Shown: positions 6,523 through 34,864 of the stretch, piece by piece | How the letters are laid out: each line of letters starts with the position of its first letter | Numbering within the stretch: position 1 is the first letter of the stretch | DNA from: Steroidobacteraceae bacterium | GTDB lineage: Bacteria; Chloroflexota; Limnocylindria; QHBO01 | DNA length: 36,625 nt | Assembly (NCBI GenBank): GCA_025935615.1 | Contig: JAICUY010000010.1 | Span: 1 to 36,625, forward strand | Direction: 5' to 3' | Notes under the pieces: generated by a model | Database searches by the model: none | The model's input: the letters and a program-made list of their open reading frames with translations, nothing else | What the model was told of the DNA's origin: nothing | Translations under genes and position numbers: made by a program

Positions 6523-6533
<11 letters not shown>

Positions 6534-9500
6534 CCGGGGCGATCTGCAGGTCCGCTTCGAGCCTGGCCACGCGATCGAGGTTGTCGGTGGTCGCCGCGCC
6601 GGCTCGAGCCATGAGGCGGATCGCCTTGGCCGCGCCCCACGGTGCCGGCAGCGCATCGAAGGCGGCCAGTGACGCGCGCGCCAGGTCCGCGGCCGCCGGG
6701 GCGTCGCCGCGAACCAGCGCCAGCCGGCCACGCACCAGCGACTCACTGCCGGTGCGGTACGGCGTCATCCAGCCGGGGCTGCCGTTCCAGGAGTCCATGC
6801 GCTCGACGGCCGCGTCCACCAGGTCGAGCCGTCCGTCGTGCAGCCAGGCATCCAGCACCGTCTCCATCGCCGCGAAGAACGAGGCCATGCCCGGAGCCTC
6901 GGTCCAGATGTCGAGCAGGTCCGGGCCAGGCTCGAACGCCGGAAGCAGGCCGGCCGCCACGAAGCGCAGGTCCATGGCGGCGTGCATGAAGCGTCCGAAG
7001 GGCGAGTCAGGGAAGGTGCCACGCTTGGGGTCGAGCCAGGCCTTGGCCCGCGCCAGCGCATCGGTCCGGCCCTGGGCCAGGGCGATGGGGGTCAGCACCG
7101 TCCAGGTGCGGACCACCGGCCGGTGGTAGGCGTTCGCCTCGCCGATGGCGACGGCGCGCTCACCGGCCGCCCAGGCGAGGATCCAGTCGCCGGTCACGAG
7201 CGTCGCCTCGGCGCGGTCGTAGGCGACCCACGCCTCGTCCTCGCGGACGCCGTGCGCGGTGGCAAGGTCCTCGGCGCGGTCGAGCAGCGGACCGACGTTC
7301 GCCGGGTCGGTCTCGACGCTGAGCATCGCCGCCGAGCGCAGCGCCGCTCCCGCGCGGCGTGGATTGCCGGCCTGCAGCGCCAGCTCGACCAGGCGCAGGC
7401 TGCCGTCCACCAGCTCGTCGCGACCGATGCGGCCGAGCTCGATCAGCACGCCGTCGCGCTGGAACTCGGCGTCGAGCTGCAGGCCGGTCTCGCCCGCCCG
7501 CTCGGCGATGCGGATGACGCGCTCCAGCTCGTCGACCACATCCGTGCTGCCCTGGTACGCGATGCGCGCCCAGGCCCGCGTATAGAGCAGGCGGGCTGTG
7601 GCCAGATCGTCGGCCTCGCCGATGCGCGCCAGCGCCTCCTCCGCCGCCTGCTCGGCGGGCACGAACTGGAGCTGCTCGATCAGCACCTCGCCCAGCGCGC
7701 TGACGCTGCGAGCGAACCCGTCACGCGCCGCGGCACGCGTTTCGCCACCGGCCTCGAGCCGCTCGGCAAAGGCGGCCGCTGCGGCACGGTAGGCAGCCAG
7801 CGCCTCGTCCATGTCGCCGCTGAAGGCGGTCGCGTCGCCCAGCCGATGCAGCCGGCGCGCGGTGACCAGCGGCTCGTCCTCGGCCGCCAGTTCGAGTGCG
7901 CGTCGCAGCTGCGCGGCCGCGGTCAGCGGCGCGGCTGTGGCGAGTGCCTGCTCGGCCGCCCGCTCGAGCCAGGACGCGGCGAGCACGACGAGGTCCGGAC
8001 GGGCCAGGCCGCCCGGGAGGCGAGGCGTCAGCGCCGGGAGCGCCGCGAGTGCATCGTCGAGATGGTGCGCGATCTCGGCCGCGATCAGCGCCACCCGCTC
8101 CCCGGCCGCCTCCTCGAGCCAATGCGCCAGCCGGACGTGGAGGTCGGCGCGCTCCAGGCGAGCGAGGCTCGCATAGCCGGCGTCGCGCAGCAGCGCATGG
8201 CGATACGCGTAGCCGTCACCCAGGAGCGCGGGACGCGGCCCGACCAGCAGGGCGCGGGTGCGCAGCTCATCGAGGGCTGCCGCATCGTCGGCCTCGAGGG
8301 CGGCGAGCGACTGCTCGACGAAGCGCCGTCCGGCGACCGAGGCACGTCGCGCCAGGCGGCGGGCATTCGCGGGCAGGTCGTCGAGCTGGGCGGCGTAGAT
8401 GGCCTGCACCGTCGAGGGCAGCGGCGCATCGGCCGGAGAGGTTGTGAGGCGCCAGCCACGGTCATCGGCGGCCAGCACGCCGACGCTGATCCACGACCGC
8501 AGCAGCTCCTCGATGAACAGCGGGGTGCCGTCCGAGCGCTCGACGATGCGGTCCACCAGCGGCGCCGGCAGCGCCTCGCCGACCAGGTGGGTGACCAGGT
8601 CGCGGGCGTCAAGCGCGGCCAGCGGAGCCAGCTCGAGCCGCTCGACGCAAGGCTCACCGCGCGGCTCGCACCATGGCCCGGCGCGCTCGAGCAGCGCCGG
8701 TCTGGTCGTAACCACCATGGGCCGGCCGGCGTCGAGCGCCGCGTCGAGGAAGGCGAGCAGGTCCGGCTCGGCCCAGTGGACGTCCTCGATCATCCAGGCC
8801 GAGCGTGCGTGTGGCGCCTCCAGGCCGCCGAGGACCTCGAGCCAGGCCGCGAAGCGCTCGTCGCGATCCGTGGGTGGGGCGGCGGCGGCCGAGGGACGCA
8901 CGAGGGCGAGCGCCGCGTCGACCAGGACGGCGCGCCGTGCCTCGCGGATCGCGGCGGCCTCGAGGGCGGTGTGCAGGGCGGCGCGCAGCTCAGCGTCGGT
9001 CGCAGCCCCGGACAGGGCGAGCGCGTCGAGCAGCAGCTGGGCCACCGGCTCAAAGGCCGATGCGCCGTCGGGCCTGACGGAGGCGCGACGAACCTTCACG
9101 CCGCCAGCGTCGAGCGATTCCGCGATCGCGGCCAGCAGCCGGCTCTTGCCGACGCCCGGAGGCGCGACGATCAGCCAGCGCACGCCGGCGCGAGCGGCGG
9201 CAAGGCTGCCGCGGATGCGTTCCAGCTCGGCATCGCGGCCGATGAGCGGAGCACGCAGCGCACCCATCGCCCGGCTGCGCTCGGGACGTGGCAGCAGGCG
9301 GACCGCCACCGCGGCGCGAACCGGCTCGGACTTCCCCTTGAGCGCCACAGCTTCGACCGGCTGCAGCTCGGCCGATGCAGCCAGCGCGAAGGCCGTGAGC
9401 TCGCCGACCAGCACCTGCGACGGCTCGGCGGCGGCCTGCAGTCGCGCGGCGACGTTGACCGTGTCGCCCGTCACGCGGCCGACATCCGGGCCGGATTCGG

Positions 9501-9858
9501 CGGCCACCACCTCGCCGGTGTTGATCCCGACTCGGACCTGGAGGCGGCCGGGCTCGAGGCCGAGCTGCGCGCCCAGCGCCTCGACGGCCGCGATCAGCGA
9601 CAGCCCAGCCGCGACGGCGCGCTCCGGATCGTCGTCGCGGCCACGGGGCAGCCCGAAGACCGCCATGGCTGCGTCACCGATGAACTTCTCGAGCTGCCCG
9701 CCGTGGCGCCGCATCACGTCGCGGACTGCCGCGAAATAAGCATCCTGGATGGTCGCCACGTCCTCCGGGTCGAGCCCTTCGGAGAGCGGCGTGAAGCCGA
9801 CCAGGTCGGCGAACAGAACGCTGACGATGCGGCGCTCGACGAAATTCGGCGGCTGCAT
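6523..9858 (-). CDS. Class III adenylate/guanylate cyclase domain + AAA-type ATPase + TPR-like regulator
   Basis: [33 protein letters not shown] cyclase motifs; Walker A APPGVGKS; long helical repeat C-terminus; 1111 aa. Confidence 0.9.
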
Positions 9859-9864
9859 GGCTGC

Positions 9865-10635
9865 CTACGGAGGCGAAGGCACCGCCTGGTCGATCGCGAA
9901 GCGCACGCCGAACAGCTCGGCGCTGCGGGCAGCGGCATCGGCCGCCAGGGACACGACCACCGGGGCCTCTGCACCCATCTCGGGCAGGAGGCGGACGACA
10001 TGCCCACCCGAGCTCCAGCTGTAGGCATCGCCCACCTTCTGGAAGGACATGCCGAGCTGCTTGGCGTGTTCGGCGGCACTCGCCGCCGGGTCGGCCACGG
10101 CGAGATCGAGGCGCACCAACCGCGCCGGCGAGCCGATCGGATGCCGGTAGCCGGCACGCTCGGACAGCGCCTCCGCGCCCCACTCCGCGCCGGCGCGAAC
10201 GTGCTCGATCAGGAACGGCACTCCATTCGGGCCGATCCGCGGCGGCAATGCCGTCCACCAGCGGACCACGTCGCCGTCAGGGCGACGGCGTGAGCCGGCA
10301 ACCGGGTCACCGATGTCGCTGCCATAGCCCTGCAACGTGCGGACGTCGGGTTCGAGCGGGCGCGCGTCGAGCGCGTAGGCCGCCAGCCCGCCGCCGCGTG
10401 CCAGGGCGGCGACCGCGGCCTCGCCCATCGGCCAACGACCAGCCGCAGCGTCGTCCTCGACGCCGATGAGCTCGAGGTAGGAACCATCGGCCAGCCAGGC
10501 AAGGCGGTTGACCGTCCCGAAGCCCTCGTGCCGGCCGCCGCCGGTGGCAGCCACGCCGAGCACGCGCTCGAGCTCGGTCGCGGCGGCATCCGGATCGGGG
10601 ACGGCGATCGCGAGGTGGTCGATGCCGTGGATCAC
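9865..10635 (-). CDS. VOC/glyoxalase-like domain protein, GTG start
   Basis: IHGIDHLAIAVPDPDAAATELERVLGVAATGGGRHEGFGTVNRLAWLADGSYLELIGVED. Confidence 0.85.
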   Translation of the reverse strand: MIHGIDHLAIAVPDPDAAATELERVLGVAATGGGRHEGFGTVNRLAWLADGSYLELIGVEDDAAAGRWPMGEAAVAALARGGGLAAYALDARPLEPDVRTLQGYGSDIGDPVAGSRRRPDGDVVRWWTALPPRIGPNGVPFLIEHVRAGAEWGAEALSERAGYRHPIGSPARLVRLDLAVADPAASAAEHAKQLGMSFQKVGDAYSWSSGGHVVRLLPEMGAEAPVVVSLAADAAARSAELFGVRFAIDQAVPSPP

Positions 10636-22387: not shown

Positions 22388-23155
22388 ATGCCTCAGATCC
22401 ATCTCCACGCCGAGCCGGGTGATTACGCCCAGCGGGTGCTGCTGCCTGGCGACCCGAATCGGGCGCGGCGTATCGCAGAGCGATTCGACGGCGGTGCGGA
22501 GGCGGTCGAGGCGGGAGAGACGCGGCTGGTGAACGAGAACCGCGGCATGCTCGGCTTCACCGGCACCTACGAGGGCCAGCCGGTGAGCGTGCAGACGACC
22601 GGAATGGGAACCCCGAGCCTCAGCATCGTGGTCGAAGAGCTGCTGCGGCTTGGGGCGAGCGAGTTGATCAGGGTCGGGACCTGTGGCGCGATCGCGCCCG
22701 GGCTGAAGGCCGGCGACCTGGTGATCGCCAGCAGCGCGGCGGCGACCGATGGCGCGACGCAGACCTATCTCCACGGCGAACCGTACGCGCCGGCCCCCGA
22801 TTTCGTGCTGACCGATGCCCTGTACCACGCGGCCCAGGCGGCGGATATTCCGGTGCGGGTGGGCCAGGTCGCATCGGTCGACGTCTTCTACAACCCGGAC
22901 CAGGACTATGCGCGGCGGTGGCGGGAGCGCGGCGTGCTCGCGTTCGAAATGGAGGCGTCGGCCCTCTTCTACCTGGCGGCACGGGCCGGCGTTCGTGCCG
23001 CCGCGCTGCTGACGGTGAGCGACGTGCTCAGCGACGAGGTGGGCTCCGAGGAGAGCTACCTTCCTCCCGGAGAGCTGAACGCGGCCGTCGAGCGCATGAT
23101 CACGCTGGCGCTCAGCGTGCAGACGCTGGACCCAGACAAGGAGGCGACCGGATGA
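22388..23155 (+). CDS. Purine/uridine nucleoside phosphorylase family
   Basis: VLLPGDPNRARRIAERF; TGMGTPSLSIVVEELLRLGASELIRVGTCGAI; FEMEASALFYLAA. Confidence 0.92.
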   Translation: MPQIHLHAEPGDYAQRVLLPGDPNRARRIAERFDGGAEAVEAGETRLVNENRGMLGFTGTYEGQPVSVQTTGMGTPSLSIVVEELLRLGASELIRVGTCGAIAPGLKAGDLVIASSAAATDGATQTYLHGEPYAPAPDFVLTDALYHAAQAADIPVRVGQVASVDVFYNPDQDYARRWRERGVLAFEMEASALFYLAARAGVRAAALLTVSDVLSDEVGSEESYLPPGELNAAVERMITLALSVQTLDPDKEATG

Positions 23156-24318
23156 CCGATACCCTGACGCGCGGAGCCGCAAACCAGGCGGGCGCGCATG
23201 TCAACCCGAACGCCGCGGCCGAGGCGCAGGACTTCCTGCCCCTGAAGGGAATCGACCACGTCGAGTTCTGGGTGGGGAATGCCAAGCAGGCAGCGGCCTA
23301 CTACCGCGCCCTGTGGGGCTTCACTCCGGTGGCGTATGCCGGTCTGGAGACTGGAGTCCGGGATCGGGCGAGCTATGTCCTCGTCCAGAACGACATCCGT
23401 TTCGTCTTCACCGCCCCTCTCACGCCCGACGGTGAGCTGGCCGAGCACGTACGACAGCACGGCGACGGCGTGCACGACATCGCCTTCGCGGTGGACGACG
23501 TCGCATCGGCCTGGGAAGAGACGACCAAGCGCGGCGCGCGATCGGCCCTGGAGCCCACCGATTACGCGGGCCAAAAGGGCACGCTGCGGCGAAGCGCCAT
23601 CCACACCTACGGCGAGGTCATTCACTCCTTCATCGACCGCTCCGACTACCACGGAACGTTTGCGCCGGGCTATCACAAGATCAAGACCCCGGCGGCCGCG
23701 GCGACGGGGCAGAGCCTGCTCGAGGTCGACCACTGCGTCGGAAACGTCGCGCTGGGTGACATGAATCGGTTCGTCGATTTCTACAAGGACGTGCTCGGCT
23801 TCAGCCAGCTCATCCATTACGACGACAAGGTGATCCACACCGAGTACAGCGCTCTGATGTCGAAGGTGATGCAGAACGGCAACGGCCGCATCAAGTTCCC
23901 GATCAACGAGCCAGCGGCCGGCAAGAAGAAGAGCCAGATCCAGGAGTTCCTCGACTGGTACCTCGATGAGGGGACTCAGCACATCGCCCTCCGCACCGAG
24001 GACATCGTCGGCACCGTCCGCGCGCTGAAGGCGCGCGGCGTCGAGTTCCTGGGCATGCCGCACGCCTACTACCAGTCGCTGCCCGAGCGGGTGGGTGACG
24101 TCGGTGTACCGATGCAGACGCTCGAAGAGCTCGGCATCGAGGCCGATCGCGACGAGGAGGGCTACCTGCTGCAGATCTTCACCAAGCCGGTGCAGGATCG
24201 GCCGACCTTCTTCTTCGAGATCATCGAGCGGCACGGGTCGCGCGGCTTCGGCGTCGGCAACTTCAAGGCGCTGTTCGAGGCGATCGAGATCGAGCAGGCC
24301 AAGCGCGGCAACCTGTAG
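23152..24318 (+). CDS. hpd: 4-hydroxyphenylpyruvate dioxygenase
   Basis: IDHVEFWVGNAKQAAAYYRALWGF; VDHCVGNVALGDMNRFVDFYKDVLGF; FTKPVQDRPTFFFEIIERHGSRGFGVGNFKALFEAIE; ATGA coupling to phosphorylase. Confidence 0.95.
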   Translation: MTDTLTRGAANQAGAHVNPNAAAEAQDFLPLKGIDHVEFWVGNAKQAAAYYRALWGFTPVAYAGLETGVRDRASYVLVQNDIRFVFTAPLTPDGELAEHVRQHGDGVHDIAFAVDDVASAWEETTKRGARSALEPTDYAGQKGTLRRSAIHTYGEVIHSFIDRSDYHGTFAPGYHKIKTPAAAATGQSLLEVDHCVGNVALGDMNRFVDFYKDVLGFSQLIHYDDKVIHTEYSALMSKVMQNGNGRIKFPINEPAAGKKKSQIQEFLDWYLDEGTQHIALRTEDIVGTVRALKARGVEFLGMPHAYYQSLPERVGDVGVPMQTLEELGIEADRDEEGYLLQIFTKPVQDRPTFFFEIIERHGSRGFGVGNFKALFEAIEIEQAKRGNL

Positions 24319-24330
24319 CCGCGGCGTCGC

Positions 24331-25353
24331 TCAGCGCCAGCCGAGCTCCGGAGCGACGTAGCGCAGGATCGACTCGATGGCGTGGGCGTTGTAGTCGACG
24401 CCCAGCTGGTTCGGTACCGTGAGCAGCAGCGTGTCGGCCGCGGCGATGGCAGTGTCCTCGCGCAGCTGGTCGACGAGGATGTCGGGCTCGGCCGCGTAGC
24501 TCCGTCCGAAGACGGCCCGCGTCTTCTCGTCGATGTAGCCGATCTGATCGGTCTCCTGCTGGCCGCGGCCGAAGTACATCCGGTCGCGGTCGTCGACCAG
24601 CGCGAAGATGCTGCGGCTGACCGAGACCCGCGGCTCGCGCTCATGCCCCGCTGCGCGCCATGCCTCGCGGAACGCCTCGATCTGCTCGGTCTGTTGGATG
24701 TGCAGCGGAGCGCCGCTCTCGTCGAACTTCAAGGTCGAGGTCTGCATGTTCATCCCGAGCTGCGCGGCCCAGGCTGCCGTCGCGTTCGATCCGGCACCCC
24801 ACCAGATCCGCTCCCGCAACCCCGGGGAGTGGGGCTCGAGGCGCAGCAGGCCGGGCGGGTTGGGGAACATCGGTCGCGGGTTGGGCTGCGCGAAGCCCTC
24901 GCCTGACAGCAGCGACAGGAAGACCTCGGCATGGCGACGGGCCATGTCACCGTCGTCCTCCCCCTCGGCCGGCAGGTAGCCGAAGTGCCGGTACCCGTCG
25001 ATCACCTGTTCCGGTGAGCCGCGGCTGATGCCGAGCTGCAGCCGCCCGCCGGCGATCAGGTCCGCGGCACCCGCGTCCTCGACCATGTAGAACGGGTTCT
25101 CGTAGCGCATGTCGATGACGGCGGTGCCGATCTCGATCGTCTTCGTCCGCGCACCGACCGCCGCCAGCAGCGGGAACGGCGAGCCGAGCTGCTGCGCGAA
25201 GTGGTGGACGCGGAAATAGGCGCCGTCGGCGCCGAGCTCCTCGGCCGCCACCGCCAGCTCGATCGACTGGATGAGCGCATCGGATCCCGAGCGGACCTGC
25301 GAGTACGACGACGCCGACCAGTGGCCGAACGACAGGAACCCGATGCGCTTCAC
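24331..25353 (-). CDS. LLM-class (luciferase-like) flavin-dependent oxidoreductase, GTG start
   Basis: KRIGFLSFGHWS...LAVAAEELGADGAYFRVHHFAQQLGSPFPLLAAVGARTKTIEIGTAVIDMRYENPFYMVEDAGAADLIAGGRLQLGISRGS. Confidence 0.9.
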   Translation of the reverse strand: MKRIGFLSFGHWSASSYSQVRSGSDALIQSIELAVAAEELGADGAYFRVHHFAQQLGSPFPLLAAVGARTKTIEIGTAVIDMRYENPFYMVEDAGAADLIAGGRLQLGISRGSPEQVIDGYRHFGYLPAEGEDDGDMARRHAEVFLSLLSGEGFAQPNPRPMFPNPPGLLRLEPHSPGLRERIWWGAGSNATAAWAAQLGMNMQTSTLKFDESGAPLHIQQTEQIEAFREAWRAAGHEREPRVSVSRSIFALVDDRDRMYFGRGQQETDQIGYIDEKTRAVFGRSYAAEPDILVDQLREDTAIAAADTLLLTVPNQLGVDYNAHAIESILRYVAPELGWR

Positions 25354-25396
25354 GCTCCCGATTCTACGTTCGTGCCCGGCGCTAGACTCAGGATCG

Positions 25397-26395
25397 ATGA
25401 AGATTGCCCACGTCAGGCAGCGCAATGCGCCGGCCGGCGCTGCCTGGCGCCTGGCCGCGGCGCTCGACGACGAGGCGCGCTCCTGGCTGGACCTCGAGGA
25501 GGCACGGCTGGCGTTGGTCGCGGCCGACGCGCGCCGAGCCCACAACTCGCCGCTCTTCCGCCAGCCGCTGACAACCCTGGACGCGCACCTCGCCCGCGGG
25601 CTGCGCATCGAGGCGCTGCGCGAGCTCGTCGATGGCGCCGGCCAGACCGATGCCGATGCGCGGCAGGACGCAGGCGACCTCGATTTCGGGCCGCCGATCC
25701 TCCATCCGCCAAGCCTCAGGGACTTCTACGCCTTCGAGGGTCACGTTCGGACGATGTGGGAGCGCCGCGGCGGGACGGTTCCCGAGGCGTGGTACCGGCT
25801 GCCCATCTTCTATTTCAGCAACGTGAGCGAGATCCGCGGCCCCGGCGACCCGGTCTGGGCGCCGCGCGGCAGCCAGGAGCTCGACTACGAGCTCGAGGTC
25901 GCGGCACTGATCGACACGCCGGTGCGCGATCTCGATGCGTCGCGGGGCGAGGAGGCGATCGGCGGCTACATGATCTTCAACGACTGGAGCGCGCGCGACC
26001 TGCAGCGCGACGAGACGACCGTCCGGCTGGGGCCGGCCAAGGGCAAGGACTTCGCCAGCAGCATTGGCCCATGGCTGGTGACGACCGACGAATTGACCGA
26101 TGCGACGGCGGGAAACGGCTACGACCTGGCCATGACGGCCGCCGTCAACGGCGAGGAGACCAGCCGCGGGACGTGGTCGGCGGCGCAGTTCAGCTTCGGG
26201 CAGATGGTCGAGCGCGCCAGCGCCGACGTGCGACTACGGCCCGGCGACCTGCTGGGCAGCGGGACGGTCGGCAGCGGCTGCCTGCTCGAGATCCGTGAGC
26301 AGACACTGGGACGCTACCTGGAGCCGGGCGACGAGGTGACGCTGCGCATCGAGCGGCTCGGGGAGCTGACGACGCCCATCGTGGAGCGAGGATGA
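25397..26395 (+). CDS. Fumarylacetoacetate hydrolase family protein
   Basis: GSQELDYELEVAALIDTPVRDL...IGGYMIFNDWSARDLQRDE...GPAKGKDFASSIGPWLVT; DLLGSGTVGSGCLLE. Confidence 0.92.
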   Translation: MKIAHVRQRNAPAGAAWRLAAALDDEARSWLDLEEARLALVAADARRAHNSPLFRQPLTTLDAHLARGLRIEALRELVDGAGQTDADARQDAGDLDFGPPILHPPSLRDFYAFEGHVRTMWERRGGTVPEAWYRLPIFYFSNVSEIRGPGDPVWAPRGSQELDYELEVAALIDTPVRDLDASRGEEAIGGYMIFNDWSARDLQRDETTVRLGPAKGKDFASSIGPWLVTTDELTDATAGNGYDLAMTAAVNGEETSRGTWSAAQFSFGQMVERASADVRLRPGDLLGSGTVGSGCLLEIREQTLGRYLEPGDEVTLRIERLGELTTPIVERG

Positions 26396-27825
26396 ACGAG
26401 TACACCGCGCGGCTCGCATCGGTCGAGCACGGATTGCGCGGTCATGCGCGAGCCGGGTTGCCGGGAGGCCTGACCGAGCCCGATCCCGGTGGGGAGGAGC
26501 GCTGGGACGCAGGCCAGGTCTGGGCGCACGTGGCGGAGTTCGGCCCGTTCTGGTTGCGTGAGGTGCGCAAGCTGGCCGACGCGCACAGCGACGAGCCGGT
26601 CCCCTTCGGCCGCACCAAGGCCGATGCCGAGCGCGTGGCGGCCATCGAGCGCGACCGCGGCCAGCCGACCGACGTGCTGCTGGAGCGGATCGTCGGGTCG
26701 ATTGGCGAGGTGCGCGAGACGTTGGCGGCGCTGCCCGACCAGGCGTGGACAGCACGAGGACTGCACTCGCGACTTGGGGAGATGACGATGCCGCAGGTCG
26801 TGGAGCGCTTCCTGGTCGGCCATCTCGAAGAGCATGCCGCGCAGCTCGATCGGCTGGCAGGGCTCGTCTCGCTCGACGACATGCGCGCCGCGCGGCAGCG
26901 AATCCGCGGAGTGGCGGTCCACACCCCGCTCCTGTACTGGGACGACACGACCTGGCTCAAGCCGGAGAGCCTGCAGCCGATCGGCGCCTTCAAGATGCGC
27001 GGCGCCTACAACCGGCTCGCATCCATGGAGGCAGAGGAGCGCGCGCGCGGCGTGATCACCTACTCGAGTGGCAACCACGGGCAGGCCGTGGCCCGCGCGG
27101 CCAGGCTGCTCGGCATGCCGGCGGTGATCGTCATGCCCGCCGACGCGCCGCCCATCAAGGTCGAGGGCGTGCGCCGCGATGGCGCCGAGGTGGTGTGGTG
27201 CGAGACGCCGTCGTCCGACGAGCGGGAGAGGATCGCGCGCGACCTGGCGACCGAGCACGGCTATACGGTCGTGCCCCCGTATGACGACCCCGCCGTCATC
27301 GCCGGCCAGGGAACGGCGGGCCTGGAGATCGCCGAGGACCTCCCCAACGTGACCAGCGTGCTGGTGCCGACCTCGGGCGGCGGCCTGCTGGCCGGGATCG
27401 CCGCCGCGGTCGGGCGCCTCGCGCCACGGGCGCGGATCGTCGGCGTGGAGCCGGAGCTGGCCGCCGACGCCGCCGAGTCGTTGCGCCGCGGCGAGCTGGT
27501 CAGCTGGCCGTCGGAGCTCACGGCGCGGACCATGGCCGATGGCCTGCGGACCCAGAGCCTGGGCCGCCTTCCGTTCGAGCACATTCGCCGCTTCGTCGAC
27601 GACATCGTCACCGTCGCCGAGGACGAGCTGCTCGAGGCGATCCGGCAGGCCGCCGCGCGTGCGCGCCTGGTGGTCGAGCCGAGCGGCGCGGCCGCGCTGG
27701 CGGCGCACATTTCCGGTCGCGTTCCTCGATCCGCCGACGATAATGCGCGCGTGGTCGTGATCAGCGGCGGGAATCTCGACCCGGTCCGCTTCGCCGAGAT
27801 CCTGACCGCCGCCAACGGAGGCTAG
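26392..27825 (+). CDS. Fusion: N-terminal DinB/MDMPI-like domain (about aa 1-158) + PLP-dependent threonine dehydratase/serine racemase-like domain (about aa 160-477)
   Basis: WDAGQVWAHVAEF and VGHLEEHAAQL (HxxxHxxQ) DinB-type histidines; SLDDMRAARQRIRGVAVHTPLLYW, IGAFKMRGAYN, SSGNHGQAVA, TSGGGLLAG. Confidence 0.87.
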   Translation: MNEYTARLASVEHGLRGHARAGLPGGLTEPDPGGEERWDAGQVWAHVAEFGPFWLREVRKLADAHSDEPVPFGRTKADAERVAAIERDRGQPTDVLLERIVGSIGEVRETLAALPDQAWTARGLHSRLGEMTMPQVVERFLVGHLEEHAAQLDRLAGLVSLDDMRAARQRIRGVAVHTPLLYWDDTTWLKPESLQPIGAFKMRGAYNRLASMEAEERARGVITYSSGNHGQAVARAARLLGMPAVIVMPADAPPIKVEGVRRDGAEVVWCETPSSDERERIARDLATEHGYTVVPPYDDPAVIAGQGTAGLEIAEDLPNVTSVLVPTSGGGLLAGIAAAVGRLAPRARIVGVEPELAADAAESLRRGELVSWPSELTARTMADGLRTQSLGRLPFEHIRRFVDDIVTVAEDELLEAIRQAAARARLVVEPSGAAALAAHISGRVPRSADDNARVVVISGGNLDPVRFAEILTAANGG

Positions 27826-27831
27826 AACGCC

Positions 27832-29502
27832 CTGGGCGTCCTGCGCACCTATCGACGCCTGCTCTCCAACCCGGACCTGACCCGGCTGCTGGCCGGGGAG
27901 TTCGTGTCCGGCATCGGTGACTGGCTGTACCTGGTGGCGCTGCTGGTGGTCGTTTACCAGCGCGAGGGCTCGGCGATCGTGCTCGGCATCGTCGGCGCGG
28001 CACGCGTCACGCCCTACATCCTGCTGTCCGTACCGGCCGGGATCATCGTCGACCGGTTCGACCGCCGCATGGTGCTGATCGTCACCGACATCGCGCGCGG
28101 GCTGACCATGCTCGGGCTGGCGGTGCTGGTGGTGATCGAGGCACCGCTGTGGCAGATCGTGCTGCTCACCATCCTGGCCGCCTGCTTCTCCACCTTCTTC
28201 GGTCCTGCCATCGGCGCCCTGCTGCCGAGCCTGACCCGCGACGAGTCGGAGCTCGGGCCGGCCAACAGCGCCTGGGCCACGCTCGACAACCTGGCCTTCG
28301 TCATCGGTCCCGCCCTGGGTGGCGTCCTGATCGCAGCCGGCGGCCTGGCATTCGCCTTCATCCTCAATGCCATCAGCTTCGCGCTGGTGGCGGTGGTGCT
28401 CTGGCAGCTGCCGCGGCGCGTCCCGTCGGCGACGGCGACGGCCCTGGAAGCTGCCGCCGGCGAGCGCGAGGAGCAACCGAAACGGCCATTCCTCGAGGAG
28501 GTGCGCAGCCGGCTGCGCCCGCTGTCCGGCATGACGCTCATCAACGCCGTCGACAGCTTCGTCTTCGGCGGCCTCAGCGTGCTGACGGTGGTCATCGCCG
28601 TCGACGTGCTGCGGCAGGGCGACGCTGCGACGGGCTATCTCAACGCCGCGGTCGGACTCGGCGGCATGCTGGGCGCCATCGCTTCCGGCGTGCTGGTCCT
28701 CGGCCGGCGCCTTGCGCCGCCGCTGCTGGCCGGCGGGATCGTGCTCGGTCTCGGCCTCATCCTGCTCGGACCTTCCGGGAGCCTGATCCCGGCGCTGGTC
28801 GCCATGACGGTGGCAGCCGCCGGCAGCCTGCTGGTTGACGTGGTGAGCACCACGCTGTTTCAGCGCACCGTGCCGGACGAGATCCGGGGACGCACGCTCG
28901 GCATGCTCAACACGGTGTCCGTCACCGCCTATGCCGCCGGCTCATTCCTGCTGCCCTTCTTCTCCGACGTGGTCGGCGTGGTGCCGGTGCTGATTACCGC
29001 CGGGGGACTGATGGTGGTCGCCACCGTGGTCGGCGTCTTCCTGATCGGCCCCGCCGCCATCCGGCCACTTTCGCTGACGCCCGAGCAGGAGCGCTTTGCT
29101 CGGCTGAGCGCCTTCTCGGGCCTGCCGACCGGTCGGCTCGAGGCAGCAGCGCAGCAGGGCCAGGAGGTGGTCGTCGCGCCCGATACGGTGGTGGTCCGCC
29201 AGGGCGACGCGGCCGATCGGTTCTACTACATCCTCGAGGGCAGCTTCGAGGTGACGCAGGTGCCCGATGGTGGCGTGAAGCCGGTCAGCCTGCGGCAGAT
29301 GGGACCGGACGAGGTCTTCGGCGAGATCGGGCTCATCTCCGGCGTGCCGCGGACGGCGACCGTGACGGCAACCACCACCGGCCGCCTGCTGGCACTCGAT
29401 GGCGACGCGTTCCTGGACCTGGTCGGCAGCGCATCGGGCTCGTCGGCCCGCTTCCTGGACCTGCACCGCGGCAGCGTCCCGAGCCGGGCGGCGGCAGGCT
29501 GA
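27832..29502 (+). CDS. MFS transporter with C-terminal cyclic-nucleotide-binding domain; start probably non-canonical CTG at 27832 (first canonical in-frame start is GTG 27904)
   Basis: LRTYRRLLSNPDLTRLLAGEFVSGIGDWLYLVALLVVVY; VPAGIIVDRFDRR; C-terminal FGEIGLISGVPRTATV. Confidence 0.85.
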   Translation: MGVLRTYRRLLSNPDLTRLLAGEFVSGIGDWLYLVALLVVVYQREGSAIVLGIVGAARVTPYILLSVPAGIIVDRFDRRMVLIVTDIARGLTMLGLAVLVVIEAPLWQIVLLTILAACFSTFFGPAIGALLPSLTRDESELGPANSAWATLDNLAFVIGPALGGVLIAAGGLAFAFILNAISFALVAVVLWQLPRRVPSATATALEAAAGEREEQPKRPFLEEVRSRLRPLSGMTLINAVDSFVFGGLSVLTVVIAVDVLRQGDAATGYLNAAVGLGGMLGAIASGVLVLGRRLAPPLLAGGIVLGLGLILLGPSGSLIPALVAMTVAAAGSLLVDVVSTTLFQRTVPDEIRGRTLGMLNTVSVTAYAAGSFLLPFFSDVVGVVPVLITAGGLMVVATVVGVFLIGPAAIRPLSLTPEQERFARLSAFSGLPTGRLEAAAQQGQEVVVAPDTVVVRQGDAADRFYYILEGSFEVTQVPDGGVKPVSLRQMGPDEVFGEIGLISGVPRTATVTATTTGRLLALDGDAFLDLVGSASGSSARFLDLHRGSVPSRAAAG

Positions 29503-30202: not shown

Positions 30203-30352
30203 GCCTGTCGGCGAATTGACATCGAGCGCGTCACCGAACCGATTCATCCCCTTGCATCGGCTCGGTAAGGTGCAGAGCAACAGGCGGTCGCCCAGCCGGC
30301 GGCCATGAAGCGAACAAACGCTCAGCCCAAACAGAGGAGAGGAATCAAACCA

Positions 30353-30616
30353 ATGGGTAATCTGAAGAGCGGCAACCTGAAGGCCACCGGCGATGACGAC
30401 GTGCAGGGTCACGGCAATCTGAAGTCGGGCAACCTGAAGGCGACCGAGGACGATGACGTCGCCGGTCACGGCAACCTGAAGAGCGGCAACCTGAAGGCCA
30501 GTGAGGACGATGACGTCACCGGTCACGGCAACCTGAAGAGTGGCAACCTCAAGGCGACCGACGACGACGACGTCGAGGGTCATCAGGCCTCGTTCCGCAG
30601 CCACAAGATCAAGTAG
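30353..30616 (+). CDS. 87-aa tandem-repeat mini-protein, four 19-aa repeats GNLKSGNLKA[TS]xDDDVxGH plus basic tail QASFRSHKIK
   Basis: SD gaggagagga upstream of ATG; perfect period; synonymous codon divergence among repeats. Confidence 0.88.
   Translation: MGNLKSGNLKATGDDDVQGHGNLKSGNLKATEDDDVAGHGNLKSGNLKASEDDDVTGHGNLKSGNLKATDDDDVEGHQASFRSHKIK
30356..30583 (+). repeat. 4 x 57-nt in-frame tandem repeat
   Basis: Units 30356-30412, 30413-30469, 30470-30526, 30527-30583. Confidence 0.95.
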
Positions 30617-33593: not shown

Positions 33594-33628
33594 GGCCCGT
33601 GACGACCACACCGCGTCCGCCGAACCGG

Positions 33629-33634
33629 GATAAT
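33629..33634 (+). promoter_or_regulatory. Putative -10 box GATAAT 6 nt before GTG 33641 of hmgA (leaderless)
   Basis: GATAAT-CGGGAC-GTG. Confidence 0.5.
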
Positions 33635-33640
33635 CGGGAC

Positions 33641-34864
33641 GTGTTCTACGTCCAGCGCGGCCAGGTGCCGCACAAGCGCCACACCCAGTTCCGCAAGCCC
33701 GACGGATCGCTGTATGCCGAGGAGCTGTTCGGGGTCGAGGGCTTCGCCGGCCGCAGCTCGCTGCTCTACCACCACACGCCGCCGACCCAGGCATATGGGA
33801 TCGAGAAGGTGGCCGACGTCGCGCTCGAGGCGTCCGACGAGGACCGCACCGGCCCGCACCGGCACCACCTCGTCAACACCAGGGACCTGGCGCCCCGCGG
33901 CGACGCGGTCAGCGGGCGCGTGCCGCTCTTCTTCAACAACGACGTGACGTTCGGCGTGGTGCTGCCCGCCGAGCCGATGCGGACCTACTACCGCAACGGC
34001 GAGGCGGACGAGATGTTCTTCGTCCACACCGGCAGCGGCGTCCTGGACACGAACTTCGGGCCGATTCCCTACGGCCCGGGCGATTACCTCGTCATCCCGA
34101 TCGGCACGACGTACCAGCTGCGTCCCGGCGACGACGAGCAGCGGATGCTGTGGCTGGAGTGCCCGTCCGAGATCGAGCCGCCCAAGCGCTACCGCAACGA
34201 TTACGGGCAGCTGCTCGAGCACTCGCCCTACTACCAGCGCGATATCCGACCACCCGACGAGGCCGCCGCGCACACCGAGACCGGCGACTTCGTGGTCGAC
34301 GTGAAGACCCGCGGACGGATCACCGCCTACCACTACCGGCACCACCCGTTCGACGTGGTCGGCTGGGACGGCTACCTGTGGCCCTTCGCCTTCAACATCG
34401 GCGACTTCGAGCCCATCACCGGGCGCATCCACCAGCCGCCACCGGTGCATCTCACCTTCCAGCCGCGCAACTTCGTGGTCTGCTCGTTCGTGCCACGCAA
34501 GTTCGACTACCACCCGCTGTCGATCCCCGCGCCGTACAACCACAGCAACATCAACAGCGACGAGGTCATCTACTACGTCGCCGGCAACTTCATGTCGCGA
34601 CGCGGCGTCGACATCAGCTCGTTCACGGTGCACCCGGCCGGCATCGCTCACGGGCCGCACCCCGGGACGGTCGAGGCCAGCATCGGCAAGGAAGGCACCG
34701 AGGAGCTGGCGGTGATGATCGACACCTTCCATCCGCTGCACCTCACGCCGCAGGCATCCGACCTCGAGGACGATCGCTACCCGTACAGCTGGATCCCGCC
34801 GGAGGACGCCGGCGAACACGCTCGAGAGCTGTCGGAACGCGGACCGGAGGCATTCCCGGACTGA
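33641..34864 (+). CDS. hmgA: Homogentisate 1,2-dioxygenase (start taken as GTG 33641; upstream alternative GTG 33599)
   Basis: FYVQRGQVPHKRHTQFRKPDGSLYAEELFG; NNDVTFGVVLPAEPMRTYYRNGEADEMFFVHTGSG. Confidence 0.93.
   Translation: MFYVQRGQVPHKRHTQFRKPDGSLYAEELFGVEGFAGRSSLLYHHTPPTQAYGIEKVADVALEASDEDRTGPHRHHLVNTRDLAPRGDAVSGRVPLFFNNDVTFGVVLPAEPMRTYYRNGEADEMFFVHTGSGVLDTNFGPIPYGPGDYLVIPIGTTYQLRPGDDEQRMLWLECPSEIEPPKRYRNDYGQLLEHSPYYQRDIRPPDEAAAHTETGDFVVDVKTRGRITAYHYRHHPFDVVGWDGYLWPFAFNIGDFEPITGRIHQPPPVHLTFQPRNFVVCSFVPRKFDYHPLSIPAPYNHSNINSDEVIYYVAGNFMSRRGVDISSFTVHPAGIAHGPHPGTVEASIGKEGTEELAVMIDTFHPLHLTPQASDLEDDRYPYSWIPPEDAGEHARELSERGPEAFPD

Follow-up and report, generated by a model that had tools for sequence, protein, structure and literature searches.

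A DinB-type domain fused to a dehydratase/racemase-like PLP enzyme is a candidate maleylacetoacetate isomerase of the homogentisate pathway in Chloroflexota

In the window, the whole 36,625-nucleotide stretch of Chloroflexota DNA analysed here, a single gene joins a DinB/YfiT-like domain to a fold-type II PLP enzyme, and the DinB half is probably the homogentisate pathway's missing maleylacetoacetate isomerase. It is proposed because the domain shares the fold of maleylpyruvate isomerase, has a putative metal site like that of BstA and is encoded where the pathway's isomerase would be expected. The features concerned are as follows.

23146..24318, + strand: 4-hydroxyphenylpyruvate dioxygenase (HPPD; start codon approximate); TIGR01263 428 bits, cut-off 277
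25397..26395, + strand: FAH-like hydrolase (start approximate); Pfam FAA_hydrolase E 2.7e-51
26392..27825, + strand: DinB–PALP fusion gene, 477 aa; one open frame, Pfam DinB_2 and PALP, five full-length orthologues
26392..26862, + strand: DinB/YfiT-like domain, aa 1-157, with proposed metal ligands H46, H144 and H148; Pfam, alignment, AlphaFold model, PDB matches
26863..26883, + strand: junction LVSLDDM, aa 158-164; DNA comparison with sister genus g4
26863..27822, + strand: fold-type II PLP domain (serine/threonine dehydratase–serine racemase group), aa 158-477; profiles, motifs, structure matches
33599..34864, + strand: homogentisate 1,2-dioxygenase (HGO)-like cupin protein, divergent; HgmA_N 28.4 bits, cut-off 20.2

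The fusion gene runs as a single uninterrupted frame from ATG 26392 to TAG 27825, and both Pfam domains exceed their cut-offs, which confirms an earlier sequence-only reading that had placed DinB and PALP in one chain within a tyrosine-catabolic setting; HPPD, the FAH-like hydrolase and the divergent HGO-like gene in the window bear out the latter. Specifically, in the whole protein DinB_2 matches residues 30-152 (E 1.8e-7, 32.1 bits against a cut-off of 24.8), MDMPI_N matches residues 37-136 (25.0 bits against 24.2) and PALP matches residues 178-458 (E 1e-78, 265 bits). Searched alone, the N-terminal part does score as DinB, with DinB_2 at 35.9 bits (E 1.2e-8, cut-off 24.8) and the weaker MDMPI_N at 29.1 bits (cut-off 24.2). 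In the full-length model (pLDDT 93.8, pTM 0.91), the helix spanning residues 133-155 passes almost directly into the first helix of the dehydratase, residues 161-171, and no linker separates the two domains. The sequence-only reading was wrong in stating that the junction has no start codon, as an in-frame ATG is present at 26881 (M164). A separate dehydratase start at this position is nonetheless unlikely, because M164 sits within the first helix of the dehydratase, relatives carry Ile there (LDEIR), and among the other fused genes only two offer any start codon there, namely GTG. The join itself reads HAAQLDRLAG-LVSLDDMR in the window and HADQLDGLE-LVTLDEIR in the genes of genera g8 and g3.

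Among 101 related genomes searched, the same fusion occurs full-length, at 62-64% identity, in four genomes of genus g8 (G014, G007, G016 and G011) and one of genus g3 (G002); G007 is 99% complete in 7 contigs. All six fused genes, that of the window included, are open across the join, and the join lies at the same place. In the sister genus g4 (G013 and G010), FAH, DinB and PALP are instead three consecutive separate genes, with DinB ending, where the fused genes have their junction, in DQLRAG and a stop and the dehydratase ATG following 16 nt later in a different frame (MANPTGLVTLDQIR); in genus g2 and others, DinB and PALP lie further apart. The sequence-only reading had regarded separate genes in close relatives as evidence against the fusion. 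Such genes do exist in g4, yet five other genomes are fused, and the two observations together indicate that the fusion is real and derived. The idea that a frameshift or a missed stop merged two genes finds support in the separate genes of g4, but a join common to six genomes, at the same place and in open frames, makes it exceedingly improbable, and the five other fused genomes rule out an assembly error or frameshift.

The stop, the 16-nt gap and the new ATG in g4 indicate that the fusion removed a stop and a start, and from these gene comparisons the fusion is read as a lineage-restricted joining of neighbouring genes through loss of the stop and start between them. The fusion is seen in three genera only: none was found outside them among 400 genomes of the phylum, a search of genome contigs gave no further fusion among its matches, and the plasmid matches listed are PALP-only, one record covering 80% of the query aside. 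Trees place the window's gene apart from the fusions of g3 and g8 (p-AU 0.02 for the PALP part, 0.11 for the DinB part and 0.12 for HPPD+FAH+HGO). These values leave room for one or two fusion events, and the fusion possibly arose more than once. NG86 estimates of dN/dS among the fused genes are about 0.2-0.5 for the DinB part and 0.08-0.5 for the PALP part, and both halves are kept by purifying selection. The DinB–PALP pairing is a new domain architecture from an ordinary event. The sequence-only reading, which knew of no standard pairing of these folds, took the pairing as the novelty; none was found in the literature searched and the two folds do share one chain, but the halves are mostly separate in relatives, and a fusion of neighbouring genes is a likelier account than a single new enzyme.

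AlphaFold predicts residues 1-163 as a four-helix bundle (mean pLDDT 90.7), in line with the DinB-like four-helix pattern first noticed from the sequence and with the DinB_2 score. The best PDB match of this model is YfiT/BstA (1RXQ), at Z 15.5 and with an rmsd of 2.9 over 148 residues, followed by BH0186 (2RD9; Z 13.6) and mycothiol-dependent maleylpyruvate isomerase (2NSF; Z 13.4). The candidate metal histidines of the sequence-only reading stood up as conserved: H46, H144 and H148 are invariant in the alignment of 21 relatives and are the putative metal ligands. W38, E49, W54, F72, G73, R74, R81 and Q151 are also invariant in these relatives. By its profile, its predicted bundle topology and its three conserved histidines, the N-terminal domain is assigned to the DinB/YfiT (S-transferase-like) superfamily. 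It passes the MDMPI_N profile but fails on the His/Glu/His metal site of maleylpyruvate isomerase, its presumed middle ligand being the invariant His144; for this reason, it is not filed as a mycothiol-dependent maleylpyruvate isomerase, and its mode of action may nonetheless be similar.

For the C-terminal 320 residues, Schizosaccharomyces pombe serine racemase and Salmonella TdcB are matches at Z 48; matches to serine racemase and TdcB structures overall lie at Z 46-48, with 37-41% identity over the whole PLP domain at Z 47-48. This, with the PALP score of 265 bits, agrees with the complete IlvA/serine-racemase-like fold recognised earlier. The PLP lysine is K201, and the motifs SSGNH (225-229), SGGGL (328-332) and SGGN (458-461) are present; K201 and most motif residues are invariant in 41 sequences. 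On the PALP profile and these catalytic motifs, the domain is classified as a fold-type II PLP serine/threonine dehydratase–racemase. The best NCBIfam match, threo-3-hydroxy-L-aspartate ammonia-lyase (PRK07048), reaches 321 bits, under its curated cut-off of 452; that assignment was therefore rejected and the substrate left unassigned. PALP orthologues stand alone in most Chloroflexota of the class, in the other genera of the window's family and in other classes, and also in Acidobacteria, Rubrobacter and Deinococcus. Because PALP lies near HPPD in the window's family but outside the operon cores of family f3, the fusion looks like a tether of two amino-acid-catabolic enzymes rather than one new reaction.

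Gene order and co-occurrence tie the DinB half to FAH, HGO and HPPD, and the PALP half is only loosely linked. In the window, the TGA stop of the FAH-like gene overlaps the ATG of the fusion gene (ATGA). In genomes of the same family, a close DinB copy, fused or stand-alone, lies directly downstream of the FAH-like gene, save that G007 has an intervening ORF, which looks acetyltransferase-like by eye. In the related family f3, the genes run HPPD–FAH–HGO–DinB on one strand in G163 and G086, DinB being the fourth gene of the operon; the order in G131 is FAH–HGO–DinB, and DinB adjoins HPPD in G088, G031, G092 and G039. Across 177 genomes of the class, with DinB presence set at E<1e-20, DinB is found in 56 of the 62 HGO-bearing genomes versus 36 of the 115 without HGO (Fisher p 1e-14, shared ancestry ignored). 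DinB and HGO lie on one contig in 40 genomes, within 15 kb of each other in 38 of them. Six of the 62 HGO genomes have no DinB, one of these being 94% complete. The DinB family is, from these counts, not confined to the homogentisate pathway, since 20 of the 36 DinB genomes without HGO belong to genus g13 and three g13 stretches (one from a genome with HGO elsewhere) show no HPPD, FAH or HGO near the DinB relative. G088 carries both DinB kinds, which implies at least two paralogous groups, the g13 relative lying away from homogentisate genes. A search of open-access literature turned up no report of the link between DinB and the homogentisate genes: no paper there mentions both DinB and homogentisate, and DinB occurs with maleylacetoacetate isomerase in incidental mentions only.

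The HGO-like protein of the window scores 37.4 bits against TIGR01015, far under the cut-off of 510.75. Identity among its orthologues in the class is nevertheless mostly 68-84%, and the motifs HSNINSDE and HGPHP are present; on these observations it is placed in a divergent HGO subfamily. Between HPPD and FAH, on the opposite strand (24331-25605), lies a luciferase-like monooxygenase that is 83-86% identical in relatives, its location not always the same. Because the longest ORF of this monooxygenase runs over the FAH start, the true start of one of the two genes lies further in. Downstream of the fusion gene, 27904-29502 (+) encodes an MFS transporter that ends in a cyclic-nucleotide-binding domain; a CRP-type regulator comes next, and both are kept in several relatives. 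Elsewhere in the window, a 103-aa ORF at 30305-30616 (+) consists of near-identical units like GHGNLKSGNLKATEDDDV with no Pfam match, and two very long ORFs, 6523-9858 (-) and 6838-10293 (+), overlap on opposite strands, at most one of them likely being a gene.

The product of homogentisate dioxygenase is maleylacetoacetate, and its isomerisation precedes the fumarylacetoacetase step. A search for the GST-type isomerase MaiA (TIGR01262, E<=1e-3) gave no match in 41 genomes, and the same search was positive in E. coli, Caulobacter and Synechococcus. We propose that the DinB/YfiT-type domain would act here as a cis-trans isomerase converting maleylacetoacetate to fumarylacetoacetate, with a divalent metal held by H46, H144 and H148 and probably with the help of a low-molecular-weight thiol, much as mycothiol-dependent maleylpyruvate isomerase works. 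Fumarylacetoacetate would then pass to the FAH-like hydrolase from the overlapping upstream gene. The PLP domain would be an ordinary dehydratase/racemase for serine/threonine or another beta-hydroxy amino acid, independent and only tethered, so that the fusion would chiefly fix co-expression and stoichiometry. A bifunctional polypeptide of this composition, in which a maleylacetoacetate isomerase that depends on a metal and probably on a thiol is joined to an independent PLP dehydratase/racemase, is the reading we favour by a modest measure. The wider proposal, that a DinB metalloenzyme replaces the GST isomerase across this GST-lacking Chloroflexota class and has also been fused, possibly repeatedly, to an amino-acid dehydratase in three genera to form a bifunctional enzyme of amino-acid catabolism, we rate as evenly balanced. 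In line with the proposed chemistry, C. glutamicum performs the isomerisation of its gentisate pathway with a zinc enzyme of the DinB type that uses mycothiol (PMC4360819), and the maleylpyruvate isomerase reaction is chemically parallel to maleylacetoacetate isomerisation (PMC4351081, PMC4360819).

Several observations count against the isomerase reading: the H/H/H metal triad, as in BstA, rather than the H/E/H of maleylpyruvate isomerase, and further the g13 DinB genomes without HGO, the six HGO genomes without DinB and the divergent HGO-like protein. Also against it, the isomerase step can be skipped where FAH takes the maleyl form. The domain might instead be a detoxifying thiol S-transferase that conjugates maleyl- or fumarylacetoacetate off the main path. 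The characterised single-domain DinB proteins of the YfiT/BstA type act as metal-dependent thiol transferases (PMC5815605), and they have the closest fold and an equivalent site of three histidines. On the other side, the gene holds the isomerase position in the HPPD–FAH–HGO operon and no other isomerase was found with TIGR01262 in the 41 genomes, and we regard such a transferase as unlikely, if the most serious of the alternatives. As to the thiol, a further point against the isomerase reading is that no thiol-synthesis gene could be confirmed: bacillithiol was discarded as cofactor, its synthase BshC not being found in 41 genomes. MshC-like proteins score below the cut-off of 485 and higher as cysS, which is ambiguous for mycothiol synthesis. 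G000 and G007 each carry, beside another cysS, a second, shorter cysS-like protein with 358-375 bits for MshC (cut-off 485), a possible thiol-ligase paralogue.

The direct join without a linker, together with the pTM of the full-length model and the precedent of DinB plus a second domain in LmbV and EgtB (PMC5815605, PMC4351081), could also point to one new step, in which DinB adds a cysteine-type thiol and the PLP domain cleaves the C–S bond by beta-elimination. Within the family, DinB stays by FAH even where PALP is elsewhere, the PLP orthologue occurs alone in the family's other genera, in other classes and in Acidobacteria, and serine racemase and threonine deaminase are structurally nearest to the PLP domain; all of this makes a combined reaction improbable. 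Regulatory additions are common on threonine dehydratases, and DinB could likewise have lost catalysis and now serve the dehydratase in regulation or oligomerisation. This is more improbable still, given that free DinB copies adjoin FAH and that neither fused nor free copies vary at the proposed metal ligands and about ten more residues. Taken together, these considerations leave maleylacetoacetate isomerisation as the preferred role of the DinB half. If it is true, maleylpyruvate isomerase would no longer be the only function of DinB proteins in aromatic catabolism; most of these proteins have no known substrate. The isomerisation in tyrosine breakdown has to follow some other route in bacteria that lack the GST-type enzyme, and dozens of genomes encode DinB as a specific candidate for it. 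What carries over from this analysis is the link between DinB and the homogentisate genes; the fusion gene, with both proposed activities in one gene, offers a natural handle.

The second domain of EgtB is FGE-type. EgtB and LmbV resemble the fusion protein in having an N-terminal DinB domain followed by a second domain in one chain (PMC5815605, PMC4351081), but in neither is that second domain a PLP enzyme. Serine racemase and TdcB correspond to the whole PLP domain, with the PLP lysine and the SxGNH, GGGL and SGGN motifs, and differ in having no DinB partner. The zeta-class GST MaiA shares the proposed reaction and pathway position, whereas its fold is unrelated and it gave no match in the 41 related genomes searched. 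YfiT/BstA (1RXQ) has the closest fold and a three-His site with HxxxH (H67, H160 and H164 in BstA; PMC5815605), but it is a single domain and a bacillithiol user. Maleylpyruvate isomerase of C. glutamicum (2NSF) shares the DinB-type bundle, the pair of helices that bears the metal site (putative in the window's domain) and, for the reaction proposed here, the cis-trans isomerisation of a maleyl compound ahead of a FAH-type hydrolase. It is distinct in its 240-residue chain, compared with about 157 residues for the window's DinB domain, in its substrate, the maleylpyruvate of the gentisate pathway, and in its ligands His52, Glu144 and His148 (PMC4351081), where the window's domain has a putative His/His/His site.
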